This document shows positions 49,133-58,673 of a DNA stretch of 64,000 bases, in pieces. Both the position numbers and the translations under genes were made by a program. The DNA comes from Planobacterium oryzisoli. Its GTDB lineage: Bacteria; Bacteroidota; Bacteroidia; Flavobacteriales; Weeksellaceae. The DNA is taken from the NCBI RefSeq assembly GCF_015354315.1, contig NZ_JADKYY010000004.1, forward strand, positions 124,001 to 188,000, in the 5' to 3' direction. The notes under the pieces were generated by a model, which was given only the letters and a program-made list of their open reading frames with translations, had not been told where the DNA came from and did not search any database. Within the stretch, counting starts at the first letter, position 1. The number at the start of each line of letters is the position of its first letter.

Positions 49133-49601
49133 AAACACATTTATTAAGCTAAAGTGTGCAGATATTATTGTCCTACCAAAATAATATAACTCTATTTGAA
49201 ATTCCTGCGGCATTCTTTGTTTTGAGAATGAGTCTTGATGTCACTATTGGAACGACGTTATTCTGGATTGCAATTTTTCAGGTGCGAAAGTATGTATACT
49301 TGAGCGTCGGTTACCTTTGGACAACAGTAATATGGCAGCAACACCGTTAACAAGAGTGGTTGCAATCTCTTTTAAAGCCTTTAAAGCCTTGTAAAAGCAA
49401 TTTAACAAGGCTTTATTCAATTCATCATTAATTCTGTAAGGGATGCCTTGTGATATGGTAAAGCTCAGTATTACTCATCTTAGATCAATGTAGATCAAGC
49501 ATTCGGCACATTGTCGTTAACTCATATGGTAATGGATAATACTTATATCATTTTCTCAGCCTGTGTGGGTGCAGTATTCTGGAATTTCCAAAAATAATCG
49601 G
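49133..49601. other. Intergenic stretch before rteC
   Basis: About 470 bp. One frame (49156-49350) stays open for 64 codons with a hydrophobic bias, but it has no good start and no recognisable family. A tandem 9-nt repeat TTTAAAGCC lies at 49371-49388, a hairpin follows it, and two 10-nt near-identical units TAGATCAATG/TAGATCAAGC occur at 49481-49500, which might be a regulator site for rteC. Confidence 0.4.
49383..49414 (+). terminator. Hairpin resembling a terminator
   Basis: A 10-bp perfect stem AAAGCCTTGT / ACAAGGCTTT with a 12-nt loop, ending in TTTATT. Possible terminator of the two-component/DUF1259 unit. Confidence 0.5.
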
Positions 49602-50455
49602 ATGGACAAATTTTTCAATCAAACATTACAAAAGCTGGAAACGGCAATCAACGACATAGAGATTGAAACACCTTGTTCAATTGAAAGGATTGAAGCTGTT
49701 ATTCACCTTATTATTGACTGTTTGCTCGAAATAAAGGAATATGTGCTGGAAAATGGATTTAAGAATGTTGCTGAAGAAATTCGCTTTTTCAAATATCAGA
49801 AACCAGTAATCGTAGCAAAACTCATCTATTACAACGAAATCTATAAAATCGAGACAAAAAAACCAAACGCAACGAAATCTATAAGGAAGTACCTTAATGC
49901 TGAATTAAAGAAACTTAAAAAATTCTTTGATAATAATCTTGAATTTTACAGGTATTATCGTACCAATAATTCGTTTATTGATGACAAGCTGTTTGTGAGA
50001 GGAAAATATGATATAAAGTTGAGTTTAGACACAGTTTATTTTGAAACTGACCATCGGTTTTCTACGTCCCATGATTATAAAGCAGCAAAGGTTATTGCCA
50101 ACGACCTGATACAAATCTATATCGAAGACCAACTGTATTGTTGCAGCACCCAGATAGATAAAGCAGTAGAGATACACCAATTAAAGTGGACGGGCAGTAA
50201 AGCCTCTATGATTGAGCTGATTTATGCCCTGCACTATCAGGGTGTCTTTGATAACGGCAATGGGGATATAAGGGTAATAGCGAAATATTTTGAAGGTTTT
50301 TTAATACGGAATTGGGCAATTTTTACCAAACGTATTTATAGTTGAGAAACCGAAAGATGAGCCGTGCCAAATTCCTTGATTCGCTCCGTGAGGGGCTTAA
50401 GTCAGGTAAGATTTTTTTGACCAGAGATGTAAAAACGGCAAGTGGAACCCCTTAA
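49602..50455 (+). pseudogene. rteC: rteC, frameshifted and with a nonsense codon
   Basis: From the ATG at 49602 the frame reads as RteC for about 233 codons (MDKFFNQTLQKLE ... AKYFEGF). A T-run at 50297-50302 then seems one T short, and the frame ends at TGA 50343. In the frame one base over, the expected C-terminus continues as ELGNFYQTYL, a TAG at 50339, then LRNRKMSRAKFLDSLREGL to a stop at 50453. In CTnDOT, RteC activates excision genes. Two lesions in one gene, next to a broken integrase, show an element that can no longer move. Confidence 0.82.
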
Positions 50456-52441: not shown

Positions 52442-52490
52442 AAATCCACCAAGGGCTAAACTCTCATCTTTTTGTATAATCCGCCTCTTT

Positions 52491-52600
52491 TCAGCACCAC
52501 CTAAAAGTAGAGTTTCTCGGTGTCCTATAGTGAAGTGCGCTGTGCAGTGTTTCGTTGTTGTACTTCCATATCCATATTCTGAATAATTTCTCATCTGCAC
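52491..52600 (-). pseudogene. IS3-type transposase, C-terminal remnant
   Basis: The minus strand reads EKLFRIWIWKYNNETLHSAL, then HYRTPRNSTF and a stop. This matches the YNNERPHSALxYxTP end of IS3-family (rve integrase) transposases. Only about 35 codons remain and no opposite end was found. Confidence 0.6.
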
Positions 52601-52876
52601 AAGAGATGGGTTGATGATTAATTTTTTACCCAGGCCTTTAATACAGTGTGCAATACCTTCTGGATTATTATTCCTAAATGCTGTTCATCATCCCTTTACG
52701 TTCTATTTGCAAAGGCCTTATTATTCCAAACATGCATAAATGTAAGCAACGTCATTATTCTTGTCCCTTGGCGTTACAACCAAATTTGTAAGATCTACAT
52801 TATTATTTTTCTGATTTTCCCTTTAAACTGCAGTTGAATTAAATAGTTTATCTAAAATTCCTATCAGCCAAAGCTC

Positions 52877-52990
52877 CTACGCGCCTGCGATGGTGATGCC
52901 GGTAGCTTGTTGTGTTTTGTTACCAAAATTCCCAACATCTTCTACTAACTCGCTTCCTACAAGAACATCAATAATTAATGTCGCAATCAT
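52877..52990 (-). other. Possible 37-codon coding fragment
   Basis: From an ATG at 52990 the minus strand reads MIATLIIDVLVGSELVED and ends ATGITIAGA. Its residue pattern looks protein-like, but no family is recognised. It may be the end of a lost gene or a small peptide gene. Confidence 0.25.
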
Positions 52991-53172
52991 ACATTGGCAA
53001 TTTGATCGGCATTATTTACAATAAAACGGCTCGCGTTAGCTGCTGAATATTTGTCTGGATAATGTTGGAAAAAGAATTATTTGACTTCAATAATCTGAAA
53101 ATGTTTTTCCCAAAACAATTTCATGATTTTAAATTGTACTACTTTGACCGTAACATTTGAGGTTCGTGTTTT

Positions 53173-53188
53173 TTTGACATTTGTCAAA
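53173..53188. promoter_or_regulatory. Crp/Fnr-like box of the efflux operon
   Basis: The perfect palindrome TTTGACATTTGTCAAA (core TTGAC-N4-GTCAA). Its centre lies about 41 nt before the transcription start predicted from the -7-like element at 53210. A similar box is found before the hydrolase gene at 56982. Confidence 0.65.
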
Positions 53189-53209
53189 GGAATCTTTCTC
53201 CAGCGGTCG

Positions 53210-53217
53210 GAAATTTG
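53210..53217 (+). promoter_or_regulatory. Weak -7 element of the efflux operon
   Basis: GAAATTTG, one mismatch from TAnnTTTG, 21 nt after the palindrome. No -33 TTG at the right distance, which fits an activator-dependent promoter. Confidence 0.5.
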
Positions 53218-53244
53218 CACGTTCAATTTTACAAACAAACATAA

Positions 53245-54651
53245 ATGAAAACTATTCACAAATTCCTTATGGGCGCAGCTTTTTCGTTGCCTCTCACGCT
53301 TTATGCGCAGCAGGCACCTACGCTGCAGGAACTCATCAGCCGTGCGCTGCAGAATAATGAAACGCTGAACCAGCAGGTTTTAGAAAATAAGTATACGAAA
53401 CTCGACGACGAAAAACTGAATGATGTGTTTCTTCCAAAAGTGGAGATTACGGGGAAAACCGGTTATATGTACACTTCCGCGCATATTAATTCACCGGAAA
53501 TAAAAGTTCCGGCAGTTCCCCCGGTTTTTATGGGAGCAGTGGTACCTGAAGGACAGCTGAGCAATAATCTCAATATTTCCGGTCTTTCTGCCTCGGCAAA
53601 AGCAGAAGCAAGTATGGTGATCTATTCCGGCGGAAAGGTAAAATATCTGAAAGAAGCCAACCGCGAGAAAAATCTTTCGGAAGAAGTGATGATGCAGAAA
53701 ACCAAGGATGACGTCATTAGCGAAATTTCCAAAGCGTACGACCAATTGGCGCTGGTTTACGAATCCAAAAAAGTTCTGAATCAGTCCAAAAAACGTTTGG
53801 AAATCAATAAAAAAACTGCCGACAAAGCTTTGGGTTATGGTTTGATTACGCCTTACGACCATAAAAAAATAGAACTTGCACAGGCCACTTTGGATTCCAA
53901 AATGGTGGAATATGAAGGCAAAAAGGAGCTTTTGGTCACTCAGATCCATCTGTTGACAGGCATTGAAAGAGAGCGCATTGCCCTGATTGAACACGACCTT
54001 CAGCCGATAAACTACGAAGTTCTGAACGAAACCGTAGAAAACAGGGCAGAGGTGAAAGCGCTTCAGCATGGTATGAACGCGACAGATTTTAAAATTAAAG
54101 CCGAAGAGAGATGGTGGGTTCCGAAAGTTCAGGCACAGACTTCGCTGTCGTATTTCGGACTTTACAACAACCACATTACAACCTCGGATGAAATTTTTCC
54201 CGGCACCGGAAAAAAACTCGATTTGCATCCCAGTGCCATAAACGTATTTCCCATGTTTACCGCAGGAATTGGCTTTAAATGGGAGGTTTTCGACGGTAAT
54301 GAAGGTAAACACGCCATTGAAAAAGCCAAAATTGATAAAGAAATTCTAGAGAGTAAACAGAAAGACGCGATTAAAAAATTGAACTTGAACCTCGCCAACA
54401 ATCAAACCAATTACAACATCGCGAACGCTCAGATCAAACTGAAAGAAAAGGCAAGACAGATCGCAGCAAAAGGTTTGGAACAGGTGGAAAAGGAATTCAG
54501 ATACGGCACTAAAACCTCCGCGGCACTTATCGACGCAGAAACGGATTTACAGAATGCCGAACTGGAGCTGCAGACCGCGATTTTCAATGAGAGAGTTTCC
54601 GCCATTGAACTGATGAAATCTACACAAAACCTAAATCCTGAAAGTCTTTAA
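53245..54651 (+). CDS. TolC-family outer-membrane efflux protein
   Basis: 468 residues. A signal peptide (about 1-21, LTLYAQ) is followed by the two-fold repeated helical structure of outer-membrane efflux channels: long amphipathic coiled helices at about 125-220 and 355-445, beta-strand segments between, and the RYGTKTSAALIDAETDLQNAELELQ repeat that marks OEP domains. It would be the exit duct for the adaptor and permease encoded next (32 and 26 nt gaps). A Crp/Fnr-like box lies upstream. Confidence 0.92.
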   Translation: MKTIHKFLMGAAFSLPLTLYAQQAPTLQELISRALQNNETLNQQVLENKYTKLDDEKLNDVFLPKVEITGKTGYMYTSAHINSPEIKVPAVPPVFMGAVVPEGQLSNNLNISGLSASAKAEASMVIYSGGKVKYLKEANREKNLSEEVMMQKTKDDVISEISKAYDQLALVYESKKVLNQSKKRLEINKKTADKALGYGLITPYDHKKIELAQATLDSKMVEYEGKKELLVTQIHLLTGIERERIALIEHDLQPINYEVLNETVENRAEVKALQHGMNATDFKIKAEERWWVPKVQAQTSLSYFGLYNNHITTSDEIFPGTGKKLDLHPSAINVFPMFTAGIGFKWEVFDGNEGKHAIEKAKIDKEILESKQKDAIKKLNLNLANNQTNYNIANAQIKLKEKARQIAAKGLEQVEKEFRYGTKTSAALIDAETDLQNAELELQTAIFNERVSAIELMKSTQNLNPESL

Positions 54652-54683
54652 TTAATTAAAAAATTAAAAAACAAGCAAACGAA

Positions 54684-55643
54684 ATGAAATCTACATCATC
54701 AAAAATACTTTCTGTTCTTACACTTTTAACTTTAGTCAATTGCAGCCAAAAGCCCGCAGAACGTACCATTGAAGGCAAGACGAGAAAAGACCTCGTCACT
54801 TTTTCACCAAAAGTAACCGGGCGAATCCTGGAAATTTATGTGGAAGAAGGGCAAACCGTAAAAGCCGGGGATACGCTTGCAAAACTTGATGTACCTGAGG
54901 TTTCTGCAAAAATAGCACAGGCAAAGGGTGCAACTTCCGCAGCCAAAGCACAGGCTCAAATGGCAAGGAACGGTGCTACAGCGGACCAAATGAGGCAGTT
55001 GAAAGCCAAGCAAAAGGGGCTTCAGGAGCAGTACCAGTACGCGCAGAAAGCCTACAACAGGGCAAGAAATATGTACCGCGATAGCTTGCTTTCGCCACAA
55101 AATTATGATGAAGCCTTTGCGAAATATCAGGGCGCTAAAGCACAGTTGGATGCTGCAAATGCCGAAGTCCACGACGTTCAGATCGGTACGCGCTACGAAA
55201 AAATAGAAATGGCGGAAGGGCAGGCCAATCAGGCGATGGGTGCACTGCAGGAAGCGAATGTGGCTTATTCCGAAAGATATGTGATCGCTACAAATGATAT
55301 GGAAATAGAAACAGTTTCTTTGAACAAAGGCGAACTCGCGACTGCCGGTTTTGCACTTTTTTCAGGCTACATTCCGGATACGACTTATTTTAGATTTACC
55401 GTTCCGGAAAGTAAAATTTCAGCTTATCAAAAAGGGAAAATCGTAAAAATGGTCGTTAATTACAACCAAAAAGAAATTACCGGGCGCATTGTTTCAATCA
55501 AACAACTGGCAAAATACGCCGATATTACGACGGCTTTTCCGGATTATAATCCTGAAGATGCGGTTTATGAGATTAAAGTAATTCCAGATAATCGGGCCCA
55601 GTTGGGTAATATTCTGGTGAACTCCAATGTGGTTTTAAAATAA
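54684..55643 (+). CDS. HlyD-family periplasmic adaptor lipoprotein
   Basis: 319 residues. The lipoprotein signal ends LVNC (Cys20). The biotinyl-lipoyl half VTGRILEIYVEEGQTVKAGDTLAKLD (about 46-71), a coiled-coil hairpin rich in Ala, Gln and Lys (about 75-190) and a beta-barrel domain with FRFTVPESKISAYQKGKIV are typical of membrane-fusion proteins such as EmrA or YhiI. It bridges the ABC-2 permease and the TolC protein. Confidence 0.92.
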   Translation: MKSTSSKILSVLTLLTLVNCSQKPAERTIEGKTRKDLVTFSPKVTGRILEIYVEEGQTVKAGDTLAKLDVPEVSAKIAQAKGATSAAKAQAQMARNGATADQMRQLKAKQKGLQEQYQYAQKAYNRARNMYRDSLLSPQNYDEAFAKYQGAKAQLDAANAEVHDVQIGTRYEKIEMAEGQANQAMGALQEANVAYSERYVIATNDMEIETVSLNKGELATAGFALFSGYIPDTTYFRFTVPESKISAYQKGKIVKMVVNYNQKEITGRIVSIKQLAKYADITTAFPDYNPEDAVYEIKVIPDNRAQLGNILVNSNVVLK

Positions 55644-55669
55644 GTGACGGAATTTTTATTCTATTAAAA

Positions 55670-56923
55670 ATGAAACAGTTAACATATTTACTGAGTAGAG
55701 AATTTCGGCTCTTTTTTACCAATAAAACCATGCTTTCGGTGTTTTTTATGGCACCGGCATTCTACGCATTGCTCATTGGGTTCACGTATGAAAAAGGGAA
55801 GGTGGAAAATATTCCGGTAATCCTCATCAACCACGATAAAACACCGCTTTCCGACCAGGTAACCCAAATGTTTGAGGACAATCACACCATAAAAGTCCTG
55901 AATTATATCGATGAGCCGGCTCCCCTGAAAGATGAGGTAATCAAAACCGAAGCGGCCGCGGTTGTCATCATCCCGGAGCGATTTGAAGCGCTGATGCTGC
56001 AGAAAAAGTATCCGGAAATTACGGTTTACGTCAATACCTCCAATGTTCTCACCGCGAATTTTGCTACGAAAGCGATTCAGCAGATCCTGGGAACATTTTC
56101 GGCAGGGGCAGAGATCAAGGCGCTGCAGAAAAGAGGCATGAATGCAGAAATTGCGAAAACGCAGTACGAACCGTTTAAAGCCAATTACATCACGCTGTTC
56201 AACACTACGAGCAATTACCTGATTTTTATGTGGCCCGCGATGATGGCGGTGGTACTGCAGCAGGTGATTTTGATGGCAATGGCCGTGACTTTTGCTGAGG
56301 AGTTCAAGCGCGACAGTTTTAAACGTGACTTTGCCGGTAAACACAAATATGCAGTTTTGGTGATGGCGATAAAATGCCTTCCGGTATGGATTTTTGCCAA
56401 TTTCAACATCCTGTTTTTCTACCTGTGCAGCCTTTATTTTAAAATTCCGTCACCGGTGAATGTGCCCAACTTTTTCCTGCTGACCGCAATTTTCGTAGTG
56501 GCATCAACCAATTTGGGCGTGCTGTTCAGTATTTTGGTTCCTGACGCGCTGAAGGCCACACAATATTTGATGGTGATTGCTTCTCCGGCGTTCATTGTAA
56601 GTGGATTTACGTGGCCAACATCGGCGATGCCTCAGTTTGTGCAGTATTTCAATTCCATTATTCCGTTAACGCCTTATCTCGAGGCATTGAAAATAATGAT
56701 TGTGGAGCGCGGTTCGGATTATTTAACTCAAAAATACTTCATCCATCTGTTGATCCTGGCGTTAGTGTATTTTGTATTAGGCTGGATAGCGCTTAAAATT
56801 AAAATCAGTACACTCTACAAAAAATACCATATTTCAGAAGATGATGAAAGCGATGATTTTGATGAAATTACAGCATCAGAAAATAACCTCAAAGAAAACG
56901 GCTCAACACCGCAAGTAGTATAA
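55670..56923 (+). CDS. ABC-2 type permease (YbhR/YhgE-like), no ATPase partner in the operon
   Basis: 417 residues. The N-terminal helix (about 20-40) is followed by a large extracytoplasmic domain (about 45-175), then five or six helices, including the ABC-2 signature region IASPAFIVSGFTWPTSAMPQFVQYFNSIIPLTPY (about 305-338). The tail is strongly acidic. It should be the inner-membrane part of a tripartite exporter. No ATP-binding subunit is encoded in this operon or anywhere in the window, so it must borrow one or work differently. A terminator follows. Confidence 0.88.
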   Translation: MKQLTYLLSREFRLFFTNKTMLSVFFMAPAFYALLIGFTYEKGKVENIPVILINHDKTPLSDQVTQMFEDNHTIKVLNYIDEPAPLKDEVIKTEAAAVVIIPERFEALMLQKKYPEITVYVNTSNVLTANFATKAIQQILGTFSAGAEIKALQKRGMNAEIAKTQYEPFKANYITLFNTTSNYLIFMWPAMMAVVLQQVILMAMAVTFAEEFKRDSFKRDFAGKHKYAVLVMAIKCLPVWIFANFNILFFYLCSLYFKIPSPVNVPNFFLLTAIFVVASTNLGVLFSILVPDALKATQYLMVIASPAFIVSGFTWPTSAMPQFVQYFNSIIPLTPYLEALKIMIVERGSDYLTQKYFIHLLILALVYFVLGWIALKIKISTLYKKYHISEDDESDDFDEITASENNLKENGSTPQVV

Positions 56924-56952
56924 AGTTTTCATTTCTTTATAGTTTGTTTGTT

Positions 56953-56984
56953 CGTCCGGGAAGTAATTTCCGGGCGTTTTTTTT
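56953..56984 (+). terminator. Terminator of the efflux operon
   Basis: A 10-bp stem CGTCCGGGAA / TTTCCGGGCG (two G-T pairs) with a GTAA loop and an eight-T run. The T-run overlaps the Crp/Fnr-like box of the next gene by three bases. Confidence 0.85.
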
Positions 56985-56997
56985 GATAAATGTCAAT
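56982..56997. promoter_or_regulatory. Crp/Fnr-like box of the hydrolase gene
   Basis: TTTGATAAATGTCAAT (core TTGAT-N4-GTCAA), matching the efflux-operon box at 12 of 16 positions with both half-sites kept. It lies 21 nt before a GAACTTTG -7-like element, the same distance as at the efflux operon. Confidence 0.55.
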
Positions 56998-57018
56998 GCC
57001 AAATTTCAAAAGAAGCCG

Positions 57019-57026
57019 GAACTTTG
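57019..57026 (+). promoter_or_regulatory. Weak -7 element of the hydrolase gene
   Basis: GAACTTTG, one mismatch from TAnnTTTG with the same G in place of T as at 53210. The ATG is 21 nt further on. Confidence 0.5.
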
Positions 57027-57046: not shown

Positions 57047-58045
57047 ATGAAAAAGAACTTTTTACTGCTGTTGATTTTCCTTTCGGGGTTTTTCTTCTCG
57101 CAGGAATATACGTCGGATATTTTGGGAAACGGTTTTGAGCAGAAAACATTGAATTTTCCCAATGATTACGAAGGAAAAGTTACCGCAACTATCATTCGCA
57201 AAAAAGCGGAAAGACCCACCCATAAAGCAGTGTTGTATATTCACGGGTTTAACGATTATTTTTTTCAGGCGGAAATGGCTGAAAAATTCAATGAAAAGGG
57301 ATTTAACTTTTATGCTTTGGATTTAAGAAAATACGGGCGTTCATATTTACCCCATCAAACTTTCAATAATGTCAGAAATCTGGACGAATACAATGCCGAA
57401 ATCGATGAAGCTTTAAAAATCATTGCTGCTGAAAATCATAACAAAATTCTTTTGGCAGGGCACTCAACCGGCGGCTTGATTACGACACGGTATATGAAAT
57501 ATCACACTGAAAATCCCAATATTGCCGGACTTTGGGTGAACAGTCCGTTTTATGATTTCAATATGGGGTTTCTGGTAAAAAAAATTGGGGTCCCCGTCAT
57601 CAGTGGTCTGGGAAAACACCATCCTGACACGAAAATTGGCGGTGGATTTTCCACTTTATACGGTGAAAGCTTGCATAAAAATTTCAAGGGCGAATGGAAT
57701 TATGATTTAAAACTTAAACCCAATGCAAACGGGAAAGTGAATTTTGGCTTTATCCGAGCTATTCACCGCGCACAGAAAGACATCCGCAACGCAGAACTCA
57801 AGGTTCCGGTATTGGTGATGCATTCTGAAAAATCGGGCTATCCAAGAGTTTGGAATGAGGAAGTGACTTCCACTGATATCATCCTGAACGTGAATGATAT
57901 TCATAAAAATGCTGAAAATTTTAAGGGGAATGTCACGATAATTCCTGTAAAAGGCGGCATTCACGATTTGGTACTTTCCAAAAAACCGGTGCGCAAAAAA
58001 GTGTATGACGAACTTTTCACTTGGCTACAAAAGAATGATTTTTAA
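57047..58045 (+). CDS. Exported alpha/beta hydrolase (serine aminopeptidase/monoacylglycerol-lipase type)
   Basis: 332 residues. A signal peptide (about 1-18, FFFSQ) is followed by an alpha/beta-hydrolase fold: HGFNDYFF near 65 (oxyanion side), nucleophile in AGHSTGGL near 145, and the C-terminal His in GGIHDLVLS near 305. The hydrolase_4 pattern resembles lysophospholipase or monoacylglycerol lipase. The ATG at 57047 keeps the signal peptide; upstream in-frame codons lie in the promoter. It shares promoter architecture with the efflux operon. Confidence 0.87.
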   Translation: MKKNFLLLLIFLSGFFFSQEYTSDILGNGFEQKTLNFPNDYEGKVTATIIRKKAERPTHKAVLYIHGFNDYFFQAEMAEKFNEKGFNFYALDLRKYGRSYLPHQTFNNVRNLDEYNAEIDEALKIIAAENHNKILLAGHSTGGLITTRYMKYHTENPNIAGLWVNSPFYDFNMGFLVKKIGVPVISGLGKHHPDTKIGGGFSTLYGESLHKNFKGEWNYDLKLKPNANGKVNFGFIRAIHRAQKDIRNAELKVPVLVMHSEKSGYPRVWNEEVTSTDIILNVNDIHKNAENFKGNVTIIPVKGGIHDLVLSKKPVRKKVYDELFTWLQKNDF

Positions 58046-58058
58046 TGTTCAGTTTGTG

Positions 58059-58089
58059 AATAATGCCTCATTTTTAGGGCATTATTTTT
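58059..58089 (+). terminator. Terminator of the hydrolase gene
   Basis: A 9-bp stem AATAATGCC / GGCATTATT with a 10-nt loop and a five-T run, directly before the promoter of the regulator gene. Confidence 0.75.
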
Positions 58090-58096
58090 ATTTTTG
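58089..58096 (+). promoter_or_regulatory. -7 promoter element of the Crp/Fnr regulator gene
   Basis: TATTTTTG, a perfect TAnnTTTG, 16 nt before the ATG at 58113. Confidence 0.5.
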
Positions 58097-58112: not shown

Positions 58113-58673
58113 ATGACTTTTCCCGAAATGCTTGCCACATACATCACCATCGACGATGATATCCGCAGTTTTCTAAACACCCAGACCGAAAAAATTTCTG
58201 TGCAAAAGGGAACCGTTATCAGCGACCAAAACACTTTAAACCGCACGGTGTATTTTGTAGAAAAAGGGCTTCTGCGCTCGTTTTATTTTGAAAAAGGAAA
58301 AGATATCACCACCAATTTTTACCCCGAAAACAGCATTCTCGCCAATAAAGATACCATTTTTGAGAAAATTCCGGCAAGGCATTCCATTGAAGCCATAGAA
58401 GACAGTGAGATTGTCTTTTTTCGTTACTCTAAAATGGAAGAACTCTGCGAAACTTCCCTAACCATTGCCAATTTCAGCCGCCGTGTTTTGGGACTTCTGA
58501 TGACGAATATGGAAAGGCGCATCAATTCCTTGCAGTATATGACGGCAAAGGAAAAATATATTCAGCTTTTAGAAGATAATTCTGATATCCTTTTGCGTGC
58601 TCCGCTTGGGATGATAGCTTCTTATCTTGGCATATCTCAGGAAACTTTGAGTAGGATCAGAAGTGAAGTTTAG
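58113..58673 (+). CDS. Crp/Fnr-family transcriptional regulator
   Basis: 186 residues. A cyclic-nucleotide-binding-like beta barrel occupies about 10-110 (VYFVEKGLLRSFYF, TTNFYPENSILAN). A long dimer helix and a C-terminal Crp-type helix-turn-helix follow, with recognition region MIASYLGISQETLSRIRSE at the very end. It lacks the cysteines of oxygen-sensing Fnr and clear cAMP-contact residues, like most small Bacteroidota members of this family. It is a candidate activator for the two Fnr-like boxes at 53173 and 56982; this is inferred from proximity and box type. Confidence 0.9.
   Translation: MTFPEMLATYITIDDDIRSFLNTQTEKISVQKGTVISDQNTLNRTVYFVEKGLLRSFYFEKGKDITTNFYPENSILANKDTIFEKIPARHSIEAIEDSEIVFFRYSKMEELCETSLTIANFSRRVLGLLMTNMERRINSLQYMTAKEKYIQLLEDNSDILLRAPLGMIASYLGISQETLSRIRSEV

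Follow-up and report, generated by a model that had tools for sequence, protein, structure and literature searches.

The closest parallels to the locus described here are the FarR/FarE pair of Staphylococcus aureus and, in vaginal lactobacilli, a tetR/farE/ohyA set that is induced by oleate (PMC12671165, PMC11429459). As in those systems, the exporter genes adjoin the gene of their putative regulator, and an oleate hydratase may belong to the same response, here only in some relatives of the bacterium under study. FarE, however, belongs to the RND-type pumps and is controlled by a TetR protein, whereas the present cluster has a TolC-HlyD-ABC2 exporter and a predicted Crp/Fnr activator.

With regard to the promoters, the nearest models are the class II promoters of Escherichia coli FNR and CRP, which share with this locus the Crp/Fnr fold, the ExxSR motif paired with TTGA..TCAA, a site predicted at -41.5 and a weak core promoter. 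Unlike them, the promoters studied here follow the Bacteroidota grammar, with a TAnnTTTG-type -7 element and no -33 element, and the regulator, a protein of 186 residues, lacks the cysteine cluster of FNR. Among proteins of solved structure, the one closest to it in sequence (E 5e-28) is PDB 3dn7, a small Bacteroidota Crp/Fnr protein of equal length and architecture, for which we know of no target, ligand or operator. Bacteroidota carry many such small proteins (up to 29 Crp/Fnr matches per genome among those examined). Given a fixed promoter grammar, their targets can be read off the sequence directly. No description of the box, the operon or the regulator was found in the literature searched, most subscription journals lying outside its coverage.

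The cluster and its two boxed promoters

The window, that is, the whole stretch of 64,000 nucleotides analysed, comes from Planobacterium oryzisoli, a Chryseobacterium-group bacterium, and contains the following features.

53173-53188, + strand: box 1, TTTGACATTTGTCAAA, predicted exporter-operon operator with its centre at a predicted -41.5
53210-53217, + strand: GAAATTTG, weakened -7 element of the exporter operon, first T of TAnnTTTG replaced
53245-54651, + strand: TolC-family outer membrane channel gene (OEP, PF02321, E 4e-38)
54684-55643, + strand: HlyD-family periplasmic adaptor gene
55670-56923, + strand: ABC-2-type membrane protein gene (PF12698, E 9e-38)
56982-56997, + strand: box 2, TTTGATAAATGTCAAT, predicted hydrolase-gene operator with its centre at a predicted -41.5
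57019-57026, + strand: GAACTTTG, weakened -7 element of the hydrolase gene
57047-58045, + strand: alpha/beta hydrolase gene, 332 aa, product probably exported (Hydrolase_4, PF12146, E 2e-20)
58089-58096, + strand: TATTTTTG, canonical -7 element of the regulator gene, without a box
58113-58673, + strand: Crp/Fnr-family regulator gene, 186 aa (cNMP_binding, PF00027)
58638-58661, + strand: recognition-helix codons, QETLSRIR (residues 176-183; ExxSR)

The exporter operon (53245-56923) includes an ABC-2 membrane protein and no ATPase gene, as is also the case in the relatives inspected. Upstream of it, positions 52442-53172 hold no open frame of 80 aa and appear decayed; positions 49563-50345 are taken up by an RteC-family gene. 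The hydrolase begins with a signal-peptide-like N-terminus, so that its export is probable, and carries a GHSTG nucleophile elbow; its matches in the PDB are weak and mostly to monoacylglycerol lipases, and it resembles a monoacylglycerol lipase or lysophospholipase.

An initial annotation of the sequence had described the two boxes, two GAAnTTTG elements departing from TAnnTTTG at the same base, and an identical gap between box and element. Re-reading of the window bears this out: both elements lie where they had been placed, the deviating base is the first in each, and box and octamer are separated by exactly 21 nt at both promoters, equal to 22 nt when counted from TCAA, as is done below. 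Start sites mapped in Flavobacterium psychrophilum assign positions -12 to -5 to the -7 box (PMC9723704). By that convention each of the two boxes has its centre at -41.5, the position of class II activators, in agreement with what had been claimed. There is no TTG at -33 in either promoter, that region being overlain by the box.

A pattern search of the 2.1-Mb genome found the box alone (TTGA-N6-TCAA) at 43 places, and the box with its spaced -7 element (TTGA-N6-TCAA-N24-ANTTTG) only at boxes 1 and 2. Loosening of the pattern to YN4R and ANNTTTG gave three matches, where Markov resamples of local sequence predict about 0.7, while the strict GAAnTTTG form did not occur in 9.6 Mb of such resampled sequence. 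The genome scan that had been proposed thus returned the two window sites and one more, at C1:310568 (L011 1501), directly after a different Crp/Fnr gene. The box there reads TTGATTTAGATCAA at spacing 22 to TACTTTTG, with a small predicted exported protein downstream, and the Crp/Fnr gene ahead of it contains one in-frame TAA. Strict motif searching was rejected as a gauge of regulon size, as only three sites are present genome-wide, including the one at C1:310568.

It is very likely, judging from the sequences compared here and below, that both boxes are operators of the protein encoded at 58113 (the 58113 protein) and that exporter and hydrolase are subject to class II activation by it; both class II activation at the two boxes and binding of the two by the 58113 protein are strongly inferred. 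A dimer of the 58113 protein would bind TTTGAyAwwTrTCAAA at -41.5, stand in for the missing -33 element and bring in sigma-A RNA polymerase at a -7 element that has lost its initial T and is thereby weakened (G/CAAnTTTG). Once activated, the regulator would turn on the TolC-HlyD-ABC2 exporter together with the probably exported lipase-like hydrolase and, in relatives, an oleate hydratase and a 3-hydroxyacyl-CoA dehydrogenase as well.

Box and regulator at the exporter operon of relatives

Orthologous tolC genes were compared in 52 genomes of the family. Wherever the regulator is linked to the exporter operon, the box stands upstream (31/31), with a box-to-octamer spacing of 22 nt in 30 operons and 23 nt in one, and it is kept in relatives down to ~60% protein identity. 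The hydrolase is missing from many of these operons, and in them the ABC-2 gene is directly followed by the regulator. Across the regulator-linked operons, conserved positions of the box stretch to TTTTTGAyAwwTrTCAAAGGAw, and the -7 region is conserved as CG[GC]AA[CA]TTTG. A set of named genomes behaves alike, the box being found at all 28 orthologous tolC starts that adjoin a regulator, at spacing 22 in 26, 21 in one and 23 in one. Moreover, the regulator of Moheibacter adjoins a non-orthologous exporter (22% TolC identity), and there too the box is present at an identical spacing. Close to the intact regulator gene of that genus lies another copy of it, which is broken (L097 5940-6511).

By contrast, none of the 18 regulator-less relatives with usable flanks has the box at the exporter operon. 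Their -7 elements are canonical TAnnTTTG (TATATTTG in 13, TATTTTTG in 5), with T as the first base in 18/18, compared with G or C in 28 of the 31 regulator-positive operons. The position at -41.5, the lack of a -33 element and the weakening of the -7 element only where an activator is present make class II activation the best reading. In the tolC tree the 18 regulator-less genomes form one clade, and together with genome G018, which has lost hydrolase and regulator and in which the box is substituted (TTGAA) by a base absent from all regulator-positive operons, they amount to only two independent losses, a dependence of which the Fisher value calculated for these counts takes no account. Two further genomes retain the box without a linked regulator: in G079 the orthologue sits on another contig, and in G014, a genome 80% complete in which the regulator was not found, the contig ends inside the operon.

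The hydrolase box is likewise found at spacing 22 in all seven close relatives that carry the hydrolase, and also in G027. The expectation that the boxes would be conserved is hence borne out at exporter and hydrolase alike, and box and regulator are conserved together (31/31 linked operons with the box, 0/18 without a regulator).

The regulator, its recognition helix and rival readings

The gene at 58113-58673, right after the hydrolase as the initial annotation had it, encodes a protein with an N-terminal cNMP-binding beta-barrel (PF00027, 40.4 bits, cut-off 27.5). Its AlphaFold model (pLDDT 94) has CRP, FixK2 and FNR as best fold matches and places a C-terminal helix-turn-helix at residues 165-172 and 176-185; a Pfam search of the protein gave no HTH match, so this domain is assigned by structure only. 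On profile and model, the protein is a member of the Crp/Fnr family of transcription factors. The description 'Fnr-like' is apt for DNA recognition, the QETLSRIR helix (ExxSR) and the TTGA..TCAA box both being present, and fails for 4Fe-4S sensing. There is one cysteine, C112, and several homologues have none. Without the four cysteines that bind the cluster in FNR, the protein cannot be a 4Fe-4S sensor of that type, and an FNR-like role in oxygen sensing was rejected for it. The regulator's own promoter has the canonical TATTTTTG and no box, and its activity is therefore probably set by a signal rather than by its amount.

A natural change of specificity links helix and box. In a sister clade of Sphingobacterium and Chitinophagales, the ExxSR helix has become QxxSV (QQTLSVIR or QPTLSVIR, versus QETLSRIR in the window) and the box has changed from TTGA..TCAA to TTAA..TTAA, mostly with the spacing kept; TTTAAGATATCTTAAA or a near variant stands at the equivalent place in the intergenic region in Sphingobacterium, L196 and L210. 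Among ExxSR regulators, 55 of 61 have TTGA..TCAA at spacing 22 within 6 kb and none has the TTAA box, whereas TTAA..TTAA occurs at spacing 22 for 11 of 17 QxxSV regulators and TTGA, by strict count, for none. The remaining 6 have no strict TTAA box at 22, and those inspected show an imperfect half-site or a 1-nt shift. As the QxxSV proteins form a single clade in the regulator tree, sister to that of the window regulator, the switch represents one event. The switched residues are those expected, from FNR, to read the changed base pair. As read from these alignments, the coupled change of helix and box ties the clade of the window regulator to the box.

The main competitor is that another Crp/Fnr paralogue, a global regulator, binds the box while the neighbouring gene controls something else. 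The window genome has five other cNMP-domain genes that might share the box, and TTGA..TCAA at spacing 22 serves many paralogues in the family; yet paralogue-rich genomes (up to 29 matches) without a 58113 orthologue have no box at the exporter, G079 retains both the box and an unlinked orthologue, and helix and box switched jointly in the sister clade, all of which make this explanation unlikely. Since Crp/Fnr proteins can also repress, the 58113 protein might bind the boxes and act negatively. This is very improbable, as a site at -41.5, the absent -33 element and the weak -7 element are marks of class II activation, and the -7 element is canonical in regulator-less relatives.

Exporters are frequently under TetR repressors, and TTTGACAwwTGTCAAA is a nearly perfect palindrome, so the box could be taken for a TetR- or MarR-type operator through which the exporter is repressed. 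However, no such gene was recognised, by reading, beside the orthologous operons listed, the box keeps an exact, constant distance upstream of the promoter core and does not lie across it, and promoters are weaker with the box and canonical without it, as for an activator; the idea was rejected on these grounds and is highly improbable. That the two promoters are alike by chance and without function is scarcely credible, even though A+T-rich DNA readily yields short motifs, because the strict form is absent from the 9.6 Mb of resampled sequence, the arrangement is invariant across dozens of genomes, and spacing 22 forms a sharp peak among listed pairs (33 vs 4.5, see below). Activation by the 58113 protein is thus the reading followed here, and the small regulon originally proposed, in which it would switch on exporter and hydrolase together, is supported by conservation, co-loss, the genome scan and the helix/box switch.

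Wider grammar, further targets and physiology

Of 150 listed pairs of box and ANNTTTG in 59 related genomes, spacing 22 accounts for 33, and each other spacing for 4.5 on average. The geometry that had been described for the two promoters is indeed unique to them within the genome in its strict form, but it is not private to them: with a peak at 22 across the order, it represents a promoter rule for this type of regulator. Distant homologues of the regulator (32-40% identical) have tolC-hlyD-abc2 as neighbours in Flavobacteriaceae and in Sphingobacterium, or else lie next to different genes; a box frequently comes immediately after the regulator gene, and in Gillisia the row runs regulator-box-tolC-hlyD-abc2-hydrolase. 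In genomes of genus g21, distinct box families occur at spacing 22, such as TTGATCTAAGTCAAAGTTT with GACATTTG and TTGATTTTTGTCAAGWGGA with GAACTTTG; these recurring families suggest further separate regulons. It is conceivable, though rather doubtful, that Bacteroidota have a class II grammar in common (Crp/Fnr box, exactly 22 nt, and a -7 element often without its first T), by which many small orphan Crp/Fnr proteins each drive an adjoining unit. One case would be a regulon for fatty-acid export and detoxification under a lipid-sensing Crp/Fnr activator, its DNA specificity being switched by two helix residues (E/R to Q/V).

A scan with the regulator alignment retrieved 80 loci. Genes for oleate hydratase and 3-hydroxyacyl-CoA dehydrogenase inserted in the cluster can carry the box (L146, L170, L173, L098); it lies upstream of oleate hydratase in L146 and L098, and in the latter the -7 element reads TACCTTCG. 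The oleate hydratase scores above its curated NCBIfam cut-off (788 bits, cut-off 567). It is present in one of the 59 genomes searched and is accordingly an accessory rather than a core member, and as it was not found in the window genome, the case for a lipid role draws on the relatives together with the hydrolase.

With an exporter and a lipase-like hydrolase as predicted targets, and in relatives an oleate hydratase and a hydroxyacyl-CoA dehydrogenase as well, the cluster fits a response to free fatty acid stress. Its job, as a best guess, would be the sensing, export and detoxification of free fatty acids or similar membrane-active lipids, and that such lipids are both signal and substrate is a serious possibility, by analogy with the systems above, if somewhat short of probable. 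Were it true, the cluster would correspond to the FarE/OhyA response, with a Crp/Fnr protein as its driver. It also offers a clean test case, in which a single regulator has at least two targets, and nature supplies both loss mutants and a switch of specificity.

In G027 (L098 4088-9938), an insert with oleate hydratase, hydroxyacyl-CoA dehydrogenase and arsenic-type genes (ArsR-like and methyltransferase-like, by reading) splits the exporter from the hydrolase. Three genomes each have two copies of the regulator (L146/L157, L149/L155 and L150/L156), one copy with hydrolase and oleate hydratase (~97%) and the other with the exporter operon (60%), an arrangement that hints at a mobile cluster.
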